A DNA stretch of 64,000 bases from NCBI RefSeq assembly GCF_005406125.1, contig NZ_BIXZ01000005.1:186001-250000 (forward strand), read 5' to 3'. The DNA comes from Haloarcula mannanilytica (lineage in GTDB: Archaea; Halobacteriota; Halobacteria; Halobacteriales; Haloarculaceae). The notes under the pieces are model-generated. The model did not search any database. It was not told where the DNA came from and saw only the letters and a list, made by a program, of their open reading frames with translations. This document shows positions 4,789-60,528 of this stretch, one piece after another (position 1 is the first letter of the stretch; each line of letters starts with the position of its first letter). The position numbers and the translations under genes were made by a program.

Positions 4789-4861
4789 TAGTCCCGGGCG
4801 GATTCGAACCGCCGTCAAGGGCTCCAAAGGCCCTTATGATTGGCCACTACACCACGGGACT
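4789..4861 (-). tRNA. tRNA-Gln (anticodon TTG)
   Basis: On the minus strand all arms fold. The acceptor AGTCCCG pairs with CGGGACT. The anticodon stem AGGGC/GCCCT holds loop CTTTGGA, giving TTG at positions 34-36 and so reading CAA. A four-base variable region follows. The T arm GGCGG-TTCGAAT-CCGCC is followed by discriminator A. CCA is not encoded. The D arm GTGTAGTGGCCAATC is the one typical of archaeal tRNA-Gln. In archaea this tRNA is usually charged with Glu and then amidated by GatDE (family knowledge). No intron. Confidence 0.95.
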
Positions 4862-45957: not shown

Positions 45958-46093
45958 CCGACCTATTTTATCCGCTAATCGGGGAGACAACAGGAAAACG
46001 GCCGACTTCCGTTATATGAATGGTCATGCGACTGATGCACAAACGAGGGTCTCGTGACGTGTGGCGGCGGTCTCCATAGCAATACCGAAAGGG

Positions 46094-46100
46094 TTTAATA
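46094..46100 (+). promoter_or_regulatory. TATA box of the TFB gene
   Basis: The sequence TTTAATA within an AT-rich patch (GGGTTTAATAATTTTCG) lies 83 bp upstream of the TFB start and would give a 5' leader of about 55-60 bases, longer than most haloarchaeal leaders. A purine-rich GAAAGGG just upstream fits the BRE position. Called from sequence pattern only. Confidence 0.45.
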
Positions 46101-46182
46101 ATTTTCGTTCCAATACAGTGTTACCGACTGCCTCCGGGTTCTGTGATGCCTCTCACCCGGTGAGCACCCGCCTTCGCAACCA

Positions 46183-47148
46183 ATGAGTGAACACACACGG
46201 ACGCGACAGCAGCATGAGGAACAGACGACGGAGTCGACGGAATCGGAGAGCACGGCGTGCCCGGAGTGCAGTGGCTCGCTCGTTATCGACGACGAACACG
46301 GCGAAACGGTCTGTGAGGACTGTGGGTTAGTCGTCGAGTCCGACGAAATCGACCGCGGGCCGGAATGGCGCGCGTTCGACTCCAGCGAGAAAGACGAGAA
46401 GTCCCGCGTCGGTGCACCGACGACGAACATGATGCACGACAAGGGCCTCTCGACCAACATCGACTGGCGCGACAAGGACGCCTACGGCAACTCCCTGTCG
46501 GGCAAACAGCGCCAGAAGATGCAGCGCCTGCGCAAGTGGAACGAGCGGTTCCGCACCCGGGACTCCAAGGAGCGCAACCTCAAGCAGGCCCTCGGCGAGA
46601 TCGACCGGATGGCCTCCGCGCTCGGACTCCCCGAAAACGTCCGCGAGACGGCCAGCGTAATCTACCGTCGTGCACTCGACGAGGACCTGCTTCCGGGCCG
46701 CTCCATTGAGGGCGTCTCGACGGCCTCGGTCTACGCCGCCGCCCGCCAGGCCGGCGTCCCGCGGAGCCTCGACGAGATTACCGAGGTCTCCCGCGTCGAG
46801 AAAAGCGAAATCGCCCGCACCTACCGCTACGTCGTCCGCGAACTCTCCCTTGAGGTCCGTCCCGCCGACCCCGAGAGCTACGTCCCGCGGTTTGCCTCCT
46901 CGCTGGAACTGTCCGACGAGGCCGAACACCGCGCCCGCCAACTGCTCCAGAACGCCAAGGAACAGGGCGTCCACTCCGGGAAGTCGCCGGTCGGCCTCGC
47001 TGCCGCCGCGGTGTACGCCGCCGCACTGCTGACCAACGAGAAGACGACCCAGGCCGCCGTGAGCGAGGTTGCCGACATCTCCGAGGTCACCATTCGCAAC
47101 CGCTACCACGAACTGCTCGAAGCCGAGCAGGACCTGCCTGTTGCATAA
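46183..47148 (+). CDS. tfb: Transcription initiation factor TFB
   Basis: 321 residues. Residues 24-60 form the zinc ribbon (ACPECSGSLVIDDEHGETVC, then CEDCGLVVESDEIDRGPEWR); a B-finger/linker with RVGAPTTNMMHDKGL follows, then two cyclin-like repeats (about 120-210 and 215-315), the second ending in the helix-turn-helix that contacts BRE. It recruits RNA polymerase to TBP-bound promoters. Haloarchaea have several tfb genes; which number this is cannot be decided. A 225 bp leader region separates it from aglD. Confidence 0.95.
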   Translation: MSEHTRTRQQHEEQTTESTESESTACPECSGSLVIDDEHGETVCEDCGLVVESDEIDRGPEWRAFDSSEKDEKSRVGAPTTNMMHDKGLSTNIDWRDKDAYGNSLSGKQRQKMQRLRKWNERFRTRDSKERNLKQALGEIDRMASALGLPENVRETASVIYRRALDEDLLPGRSIEGVSTASVYAAARQAGVPRSLDEITEVSRVEKSEIARTYRYVVRELSLEVRPADPESYVPRFASSLELSDEAEHRARQLLQNAKEQGVHSGKSPVGLAAAAVYAAALLTNEKTTQAAVSEVADISEVTIRNRYHELLEAEQDLPVA

Positions 47149-47249
47149 AATTTGACTACGCGCTGAATCGCTCTGCGGAACGCGTTTTCTCTCGTAAATG
47201 GAGACATAAACAGCGTGTCCAGTTGCGCAACTGGTGGTCCAAACAGCAT

Positions 47250-47506
47250 GAAAGCCCCGGCCGGCTGAACTCGGGGGACTCGCTGTGGTCCTCGCTCGCC
47301 ATGTTCACTGCGGTCCTTACTTCGTCCGCCTTCGTTCAGCCGGCCGCCCCTTTCAGCATCCGTAGCTGATTGGCCAGCTGACATCGGGTGGGACCGAAAG
47401 GGGCCGTACTCTCAGCGAACCCCGACGACGCAAGCACTGGACGAGTGACTGTAGGGAGCGAGGAAGCGCGCAGCGAGTCGCGGGAGCTGAGAGTACGGGG
47501 GCTTTC
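47250..47506. repeat. 257 bp nested inverted-repeat element
   Basis: Two adjacent imperfect hairpins share terminal motifs. The first pairs 47250-47270 (GAAAGCCCCGGCCGGCTGAAC to 20 of 21 bases) with 47334-47354; the second pairs 47396-47416 with 47486-47506. In both, the only mismatches are three bases of a CCC/GGG swap after GAAAG. The outermost ends are a perfect inverted pair (GAAAGCCCC ... GGGGCTTTC), as are the inner ends (GCCCCTTTC ... GAAAGGGGC). The spacer of the first (CTCGCTGTGGTCCTCGCTC) resembles the reverse complement of the second's. No protein frame. It fills most of the 463 bp gap between tfb and the methyltransferase gene. Confidence 0.75.
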
Positions 47507-47611
47507 TGGGTCTCTACAGTTGTCACTGCAGGACGGGACACGACAGTCACAGAGTGACAGTCATCGACCGACAACCGCAAGACTAGAGTCAGTTCATCCG
47601 CTGGGACCGGT

Positions 47612-48640
47612 ATGGAGACGACACACCGGGTTCGAACCGGTGACGCCCGCACGCTCGACTGTCCCGACGACAGCGTCGAACTGGTTGTCACGTCCCCTCC
47701 CTACCCGATGATAGAGATGTGGGACGACATCTTCGCGGAATTAGACTCCGACATCGGGGCGGCGCTGGACCGCGGCGACGGCGACCGGGCGTTCACGCTG
47801 ATGCACGACGTGCTCGATACGGTGTGGGCCGAGCTAGAGCGCGTCCTCGTCCCCGGTGGCATCGCCTGTATCAACGTCGGTGACGCGACGCGGTCGCTGT
47901 CCGACGGCTTTCGCTCCTATCCGAACCACGCAGAGATAACCGACCGGCTGACCGACCACGGCCTGCGCGCGCTGCCCGATATTCTGTGGCGCAAACCGAC
48001 AAACAGCGGCGCGAAGTTCATGGGTTCTGGGATGGTCCCCCCGAACGCCTATCCGACACTGGAACACGAGCACATCCTCGTGTTCCGCAACGGGGAGCGC
48101 CGCCGTCTCGAACCCGGCGCTGACCGCCGCTACGAGAGCGCCTATTTCTGGGAGGAGCGCAACGAGTGGTTCTCCGACCTCTGGGAACTGCCCGGCGAGA
48201 CCCAGGACCTCGACGACGGGCTTCGGGACCGCTCGGGTGCCTTCCCGCTGACAGTCCCGTATCGACTCATCTCGATGTTCTCGGTGTACGGCGACACCGT
48301 ACTCGACCCGTTTCTCGGCACCGGGACGACAACGCTGGCGGCGATGGTCGCCGGGCGGAACTCGGTGGGTGTGGACCGCGACCCGGACCTGCTGTCGGCG
48401 CTCGAAGACCGGGTCGCCACGGCCCCCGAACGCTCCCGGACCATCGCCGATGAACGGCTGGCCGACCACCGATCGTGGGTCGAACAGCGCCGCGCCGACG
48501 GCAAGGAACCGGGGTACGAGGCCGAGCGGTACGACTTCGCTGTCAACACGAAACAGGAGCAGCGGATTCAGTTCTACGCGGTCGAGTCCGTCGAGTCGAC
48601 CGACGACGGCTACCGGGCCGTCCACAAGCCGGTCGAGTAA
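47612..48640 (+). CDS. DNA methyltransferase, probably CTAG-specific N4-cytosine type
   Basis: 342 residues, a beta-class arrangement. The catalytic motif TSPPY sits near residue 27-31, and the SAM-binding motif FLGTGTT lies late (about residue 230) followed by NSVGVDRDPDL. SPPY is typical of N4-cytosine enzymes. A solitary methylase with no restriction partner beside it. In Haloferax the homologue in a similar neighbourhood (HVO_0794, Zim-like) methylates CTAG, a motif depleted in haloarchaeal genomes (from memory). Starts 106 bp after the inverted-repeat element. Confidence 0.82.
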   Translation: METTHRVRTGDARTLDCPDDSVELVVTSPPYPMIEMWDDIFAELDSDIGAALDRGDGDRAFTLMHDVLDTVWAELERVLVPGGIACINVGDATRSLSDGFRSYPNHAEITDRLTDHGLRALPDILWRKPTNSGAKFMGSGMVPPNAYPTLEHEHILVFRNGERRRLEPGADRRYESAYFWEERNEWFSDLWELPGETQDLDDGLRDRSGAFPLTVPYRLISMFSVYGDTVLDPFLGTGTTTLAAMVAGRNSVGVDRDPDLLSALEDRVATAPERSRTIADERLADHRSWVEQRRADGKEPGYEAERYDFAVNTKQEQRIQFYAVESVESTDDGYRAVHKPVE

Positions 48641-48676
48641 GCACGGGTTTTTGTGCGGTTCCGTCGAAGCCGGCGT

Positions 48677-49366
48677 ATGGACTTCGAGTCGTTCACCTTG
48701 CTCGCCGCGACCGACGACCTCGGGGTGGAGCCGGCCGCCCGCGCCGACGCCGACGGGCTGGAGTTGCGGCTGGACTTCGCCGACGAGCCGCTGGCACAGC
48801 TGGACGCTTACGACGGGGAACTGCCGATACTTGTCACCAACCGGCCGACGTGGGAAGGCGGCGAAGCCGCCGACACCGCCGGTCGGCTCGACGCGCTCGA
48901 AACCGCACTCGAACACGACGCCGTGACGGCTGTCGACCTCGAACTCGCGGCGCTTGAGGGAGCCGGTGACTACGACGCCGGACGGGTCGCCGACACCGCC
49001 CGCGAGCACAACGCATCCGTCGTCGTCTCAACACACAACTTCGAGTCGACGCCCGACCGGGAAGCGATTGTGAACCGCCTCGAACGAGCCTGCGCTCACG
49101 GCGACGTGGGGAAAATGGCCAGCACGGCCGAGTCGCCGGACGACGTGCTGGCGATGCTCGGGGCGAGCCGCGAACTGACCGCCATAGATGAGCGGGTGGC
49201 CACGATGTGTATGGGTGCAGCGGGGCGACACTCCCGAGCGGTCGCGCCGCTGTACGGCTCCCGCATCGGCTACGCGCCGGTCGACCCCGCCGACGCGACC
49301 GCACCGGGCCAGTACGACCTCGCAACGCTCCGGACGCTGGTCGAGCAGCTACGAAGCGACGCCTGA
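48677..49366 (+). CDS. aroD: 3-dehydroquinate dehydratase, type I
   Basis: 229 residues. The type I fold is marked by the catalytic His in VVSTHNFESTP, the Schiff-base Lys in DVGKMASTAES, and EL residues in DADGLELRLDF. It converts 3-dehydroquinate to 3-dehydroshikimate, third step of the shikimate pathway. Fits with the archaeal early genes (dehydroquinate synthase II and ADH synthase) nearby, though on the opposite strand. Slightly short, as archaeal AroD proteins often are. 36 bp after the methyltransferase stop. Confidence 0.92.
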   Translation: MDFESFTLLAATDDLGVEPAARADADGLELRLDFADEPLAQLDAYDGELPILVTNRPTWEGGEAADTAGRLDALETALEHDAVTAVDLELAALEGAGDYDAGRVADTAREHNASVVVSTHNFESTPDREAIVNRLERACAHGDVGKMASTAESPDDVLAMLGASRELTAIDERVATMCMGAAGRHSRAVAPLYGSRIGYAPVDPADATAPGQYDLATLRTLVEQLRSDA

Positions 49367-60384: not shown

Positions 60385-60505
60385 CTGTAAGGCCCGATGA
60401 GTAACCGTCTTGTCGCCAGCGGCAGTAGCATCTGCCGGCCGATGACGACGCCTTACAGGGCCGAACCGGGGTGACTCCCCTGTAGTGACGAGCCCTATGA
60501 GTGCC
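60385..60505 (-). ncRNA. Candidate structured RNA at the element border
   Basis: A 9 bp closing stem, CTGTAAGGC/GCCTTACAG (60385-60393 with 60460-60468), encloses a second hairpin (GGCAG/CTGCC core, with GCC/GGC and CGTC/GACG outer helices). A third stem, GGGG-TGACT-CCCC, follows. An AATAAAAGTATT box at 60529-60540 on the minus strand would start a transcript near 60505 that runs towards dsbA. No tRNA or C/D-box pattern fits. It could be a small RNA or an unusual 5' leader of the DsbA-like gene; the call rests on structure alone. Confidence 0.3.
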
Positions 60506-60528
60506 GAGGCCACACTATTAGGACTAGA

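Follow-up and report, generated by a model that had tools for sequence, protein, structure and literature searches.

The nested inverted repeat at positions 47250-47506 of the window (the 64-kb stretch of Haloarcula mannanilytica DNA that was analysed) consists of two inverted copies of a single hairpin unit, arranged head to head as a dyad. This element is probably an old dyad copy of a class-wide, non-autonomous MITE-type family of Halobacteria that carries a structure-conserved hairpin unit.

Anatomy of the window element

The element lies in the intergenic gap between a stop codon at 47148 and a start codon at 47612. From our own reading of the open reading frames, we take the neighbors to be a transcription-factor-B-like gene and a DNA-methylase-like gene. 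The original prediction described a nested inverted repeat with four alternating termini, all of which were found by sequence match. The outer terminus GAAAGCCCC occupies 47250-47258 on the plus strand and recurs on the minus strand at 47498-47506, where the plus strand reads GGGGCTTTC. The inner terminus GAAAGGGGC lies at 47396-47404 on the plus strand and at 47346-47354 on the minus strand (GCCCCTTTC on the plus strand). Each 9-mer occurs once per orientation in the 64-kb window.

A covariance model, R1, places one unit on the plus strand at 47386-47506 and an inverted unit on the minus strand at 47250-47361. The plus-strand unit comprises a GGGTGGGACC lead, a GAAAG/CTTTC stem, a GGG.GGG internal loop, a variable covarying arm, and conserved inner loops; the sequence of the minus-strand unit reveals a damaged GGGYGGG lead. 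Read 5' to 3' on the sense strand, the unit runs GGGYGGGACT, GAAAG, GGG, C, arm, the inner motif GACGCAAGCAC...GCGCAGCGAG, arm, G, GGG, and CTTTC. The plus unit scores 112.4 bits (E 7.3e-21) and the minus unit 107.8 bits (E 6.2e-20) with a model whose 66 training rows include both; an untrained copy from a plasmid of Halobacterium sp. DL1 scores 99.2 bits. That one model fits opposite strands bears out the proposal that the two internal spacers are related as reverse complements.

Complementarity, predicted fold, and sequence delineate the P2 hairpin (47259-47345, minus strand; arm GGCCGGCTGAAC, inner motif AAGTAAGGACC..CACAGCGAG) and the P4 hairpin (47405-47497, plus strand; arm CGTACTCTCAGC, inner motif GACGCAAGCAC..GCGCAGCGAG). 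A central segment (47355-47395), which forms the loop side of P3 in the predicted fold, links the two units. The arms of both hairpins (22 and 21 nt) are 86% complementary, with three mismatches each at the CCC/GGG triplet. These mismatches are where the original prediction put them, although they make better sense as a conserved internal loop (G.G) within each single unit. Complementarity was also detected between the outer pair and from spacer to spacer. The plus strand folds at -136.7 kcal/mol compared with -113.1 (sd 5.5) for shuffled sequences (z -4.3; 0 of 200 as low), and the minus strand gives a z of -4.5, with none of 200 shuffles as low. Together with the sequence matches, these results confirm that the repeat structure is not due to chance. 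The suggested switch between two foldings is geometrically possible; the predicted minimum-free-energy shape of the plus strand favors a four-way junction. Possible terminal-repeat remnants, weak and not significant, were read from the sequence at 47211-47225 (CAGCGTGTCCAGTTG, plus strand) and 47532-47546 (TGTCGTGTCCCGTCC, minus strand).

In dyads taken from 17 loci, the hairpin slots span 2-211 nt. Some slots hold further perfect hairpins, nested within them. At L066, L133, L161, and L186, perfect hairpins of 8-10 bp are inserted in the P2 and P4 arms, often two by two and linked by TGATGA/TCATCA; these nested hairpins resemble small mobile repeats that target palindromes.

Conservation of the fold and of G tracts

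The original prediction held that an absence of second copies and of compensatory changes in the arms would count against it. Both turned out to be abundant. A search by stem motifs retrieved 224 units; it required 7 or more of 10 arm pairs, which inflates pairing. The inner motif gave the orientation of 198 of them, and these form 63 arm clusters. With one unit taken per cluster, 94.4% of arm pairs are Watson-Crick, compared with 39.5% when the 3' arms are shuffled among units, and all four pair types are common across the 63 representatives. In an alignment of 66 units, 92.2% of the stem cells are paired versus 68.5% after shuffling, and the covariation score is 0.576 versus 0.161 (0 of 500 shuffles as high). 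Sliding the structure by one column reduces pairing to 41.8 and 55.2%. RNAalifold independently predicted 25 pairs, 23 of which show compensatory change. In the outer stem, for which the search admitted all 16 combinations, the variants GAAAG/CTTTC (197), CAAAG/CTTTG (14), GGAAG/CTTCC (7), and CGAAG/CTTCG (4) leave 2 of 224 units uncompensated. Covariation of the kind expected of a structured RNA is therefore present above both shuffled and slid controls. Pairing of the P3 inner stem in dyads is no better than shuffled at conserved positions. Covariation of the dyad outer stem, P1, was not counted, since its two ends are inverted copies of each other and inverted duplication can by itself give rise to such covariation.

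The mismatches are strand-asymmetric. Among the 198 oriented units, G.U occurs 41 times versus 13 for A.C, G.A 26 versus 4 for C.U, and G.G 20 versus 0 for C.C. The 63 cluster representatives contain 16 G.U and 3 A.C, and the 66-unit alignment, which has misaligned ends, contains 77 and 31. The G.G internal loop, a tandem G-A, and A-rich loops are invariant, while the outer stem, the arm, and the inner helices vary by compensatory change. Because this change is accompanied by an excess of G.U over A.C on one strand, it seems to be a folded single strand that is under selection. The ratios are those expected of folded RNA and favor it without proving it, since single-stranded DNA would also tolerate G.T, G.A, and G.G; C-to-T mutation alone could raise G.U. 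The conserved object would be one folded strand, for which a transcript is the likeliest candidate and single-stranded DNA a possible one, used by a protein or by the element itself.

The loop positions are G in all 66 aligned units, a count selected in part by the core pattern with which most of these loci were fetched. A fairer test of the G tracts uses loci fetched by the inner motif alone. Among 40 such units with a three-G loop, two GGG tracts lie upstream in 34, GG tracts in 3, and no such tracts in 3; all four units with a two-G loop have GG-N-GG. The two-G form occurs in 15 of 292 genomes and 8 genera, and its 30 sites comprise 26 with GG-N-GG, 4 with neither arrangement, and 0 with GGG-N-GGG. 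Loop size and upstream tract size are associated (Fisher p 3e-15), which suggests, without proving, a quadruplex with concerted loss of a tier, since it may reflect one founder per subfamily. In sequence, the unit has the four conserved G tracts on one strand that a G-quadruplex calls for, and the G.G internal loop may form one with the two upstream tracts. We offer, as a speculation that is more doubtful than the family assignment itself, that the unit represents a mobile quadruplex-duplex element, in the form of RNA or single-stranded DNA. GGG-Y-GGG-ACTGAAA-GGGG-C-[hairpin]-GGGG would form a three-tier quadruplex with the long hairpin as its last loop, and in a second subfamily tracts and loop would have been reduced together to two tiers (GG-Y-GG, two-G loop). 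Within a dyad, the C tracts of the inverted neighbor could switch the quadruplex to the four-way junction. Such a quadruplex would suit the haloarchaeal cell, which is high in K+. Archaeal quadruplexes are an active topic (PMC12873603).

Distribution and mobility of the family

A search with 361 bases around the element yielded 15 matches in its own genome (G000; 33 contigs). Of the 15 loci given to it, the covariance model found units at 11, 15 distinct ones in all; there were 16 model matches, one locus having been entered twice. A 19-base core, allowing one mismatch, is present in 72 of 116 family genomes (control, 0 in all), at copy numbers that range from 0 to 167 between related genomes with the maximum in G081. 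The exact core occurs in 146 of 292 haloarchaeal genomes of the class, representing 50 of 77 genera (reversed control, 0). In a species-wide collection at least 119 stretches match, and 80 of 80 names among the matches listed are haloarchaeal. Plasmid records gave 42 and 33 matches, all with haloarchaeal names among those listed; viral contigs gave 0 matches to the element, and phage records none. The inner-motif core pattern occurs in 75 of 194 genomes and is especially abundant in genus g26, which lacks the GAAAG form. Single units are common, and dyads are present in many genomes.

Several features recur in the flanks of individual units. A conserved stretch of ~200 nt (GGTTGCGGTGAGCCAGCATCCCGCG...) lies upstream of one orthologous unit in Haloarcula genomes (L067, L069, L070, L074, L075, L076, and L168); an Rfam search of L067 gave no match to it. 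Outside Haloarcula, many units (L063, L097, L102, L105, L118, and L354-L373) are preceded by another recurrent block (GAGTCGGYTGGGGAGG.GTGAGG...). At L345, L077, and L336, the hairpin core is sense-oriented within antisense flanks, as if inverted in place.

Clean termini and target duplications were observed mainly in one genus, g19 (G081 and G019). Here, the unit lies ~48 nt inward of inverted termini GGTAGTGTTCAGATA, for which there are 61 sites in G081 and 52 in G019 when one mismatch is allowed (reversed control, 0). Thirty-one elements with both termini measure 173-442 bp and are devoid of a transposase gene. Their 8-bp flanks match at 134 of 248 positions compared with 74.9 (sd 7.3) after permutation (z 8.1; the highest of 1000 permutations was 99), and 3 of the 31 have perfect 8-bp duplications. 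Flank lengths of 3-7 and 9-14 in the same elements gave no duplication signal; only an offset of 8 did. In g19 the family is thus short, without a transposase gene, bounded by terminal inverted repeats, and flanked by a duplication of fixed 8-bp length, as a MITE is. Both its ends and the length of the duplication match a classical DDE transposon. Beyond g19, the z was 3.2 for 34 candidate elements and 4.1 for the 18 with better termini, although some of the 34 come from loci that possibly belong to g19 too. Haloarcula and other genera were also scanned blind for 8-bp duplications at fixed offsets, which revealed no clear boundary; the strongest signal beyond g19 (a=34, b=24) was rejected on inspection, which found no real duplications. 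The only terminus pair at transposon length, 1.28 kb in L281, encloses host genes and was attributed to chance.

The inverted termini and 8-bp duplications suggest that the ancestral-looking single form of g19 spread as DNA through a transposase acting in trans. We infer that this transposase is a DDE enzyme that acts on ends starting GGTxGTGTT. IS1595 was set aside as a doubtful mobilizer: its domain is absent from both high-copy g19 genomes (G019 and G081), and IS1595 loci lack the terminus pair. ISH6 is doubtful too: its transposase, found in only 3 of 18 genomes tested, is absent from G019 and G081, and the duplications of the family are not AT-rich. An annotated ISH6 on the DL31 plasmid, the identity of which was confirmed by NCBIfam, has ends GGTCGTGTCGCAAAG and the 8-bp duplication AATAAATT on both sides; its termini resemble those of the family only in the first nine bases, GGTxGTGTT. 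The DL31 plasmid contains two ISH6 copies (L313, 3410-4747 and 34513-35850) with 8-bp AT-rich duplications, which can serve as references when terminal repeats are compared. These searches, for IS1595 in G019 and G081 and for ISH6 in 18 genomes, identified no mobilizing transposase for the family.

Alignment between the two flanking genes in 14 close Haloarcula-like genomes showed that the window locus is filled in five (L210, L212, L213, L214, and L222) and empty in nine, where the intergenic DNA measures 107-125 nt. Covariance-model matches occur only in the same five of the 14. L213 has lost the P2 hairpin; L214 and L222 have P2 in common and other hairpins in place of P4, and two further hairpins are inserted in L222. 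Elsewhere in the H. mannanilytica genome, a P2-empty copy lies at G000:C1:1228166. About 40 extra nucleotides on each side of the filled copies cannot be aligned to the empty sites, so the exact ends of the element are unreadable at this locus. Given the lack of clean termini and of a demonstrable target duplication, the window copy is read as an old remnant of a mobile element. The original prediction of two inverted copies of a MITE-like unit is borne out at the level of the family, with its single units, dyads, and 8-bp duplications in g19. The dyads, hairpin losses, and hairpin swaps would have arisen by recombination between such copies.

Alternative explanations and relation to known systems

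Palindromes can stay complementary through DNA-level repair, and a somewhat unlikely alternative is that the element is a palindromic MITE at the DNA level only, in which the hairpin is a by-product and template switching or arm conversion maintains complementarity. That dyads are themselves inverted duplications, that entire hairpins have disappeared or been exchanged at a single orthologous site, and that a P2-empty copy exists are consistent with this account, whereas neither the strand-asymmetric mismatches (G.U over A.C, G.G over C.C) nor the invariant unpaired positions are expected from arm-to-arm correction. It is less probable still that the unit is a structured RNA beneficial to the host, or a 3'-UTR or termination element, that is merely repeated. 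Its RNA-like covariation is in keeping with such a role, as is its position: a predicted ORF contains only 14 of 153 units, and of the 74 units with close neighbors on both sides, 47 run in the same direction as the left gene and 45 as the right, a weak bias. Terminal repeats with 8-bp target duplications, presence or absence at one locus, and a range of 0 to 167 copies between related genomes fit a mobile element better.

We regard as very improbable that P2 and P4 are independently mobile hairpins with the GCCCC repeat as their 5-bp target duplication. GCCCC/GGGGC does form a direct repeat around each hairpin, and some copies have no hairpin; nevertheless, 111 of the 121 distinct sites have the core within one context, GAAAGGGG..GGGGCTTTC, on which ground the target-duplication reading was dropped. 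A strict count finds that context at 36 of 50 core-fetched sites, the rest being mostly stem variants or rearranged, and no other target site was seen among the 121 distinct and 50 core-fetched sites.

Bacterial REP and REPIN sequences are single hairpin units and inverted pairs dispersed between genes. The family shares this arrangement and differs by its classical 8-bp duplication. Haloarchaeal MITEs (such as ISH2 and MITEHsal1/2) are likewise short and non-coding, with inverted termini, target duplications, and mobilization in trans, as described in PMC10264941 and PMC3119063; the former gives duplications of 8 and 6 bp for two MITEHsal2 copies. In contrast to these, the family carries a covarying, loop-conserved hairpin and spans many haloarchaeal families, and our searches of it found no related autonomous element. 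The Haloquadratum repeats SMR-A and SMR-B, as PMC3119063 presents them, are also small, have inverted termini, are without a known mobilizer, and tend to nest in the palindromes of other elements. By that description, and compared by description rather than sequence, SMRs are without target duplication, which sets them apart from the 8-bp duplications of g19. PMC3119063 also describes IS200/IS605-derived PATEs as devoid of terminal inverted repeats and target duplication, both of which g19 elements have. ISH6 and its prokaryotic Mutator-like group share with the family an 8-bp duplication and termini starting GGTxGTGTT; they differ from it in an AT-rich target (PMC3942029) and in all but the first nine terminal bases.

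Rfam searches of the window, of positions 46000-49000, and of six family loci gave nothing over the element at gathering score, only sub-threshold matches; one of these, to mir-4433 on the P3 hairpin, is a chance likeness. Away from the element, matches at threshold in the window are to the C/D-box RNA sR-tMet and a tRNA, at 60437-60511 (plus strand) and 4789-4861 (minus strand). The open literature searched yielded no report of the element, and the family appears to be absent from Rfam and from those papers. A structured, apparently mobile element is thus found in about half of the sampled haloarchaeal genomes, at up to 167 sites per genome. The family could readily be used to ask why a MITE transposed as DNA should keep an RNA-like fold, and it is a natural covarying candidate for G-quadruplex biology in potassium-rich cells.
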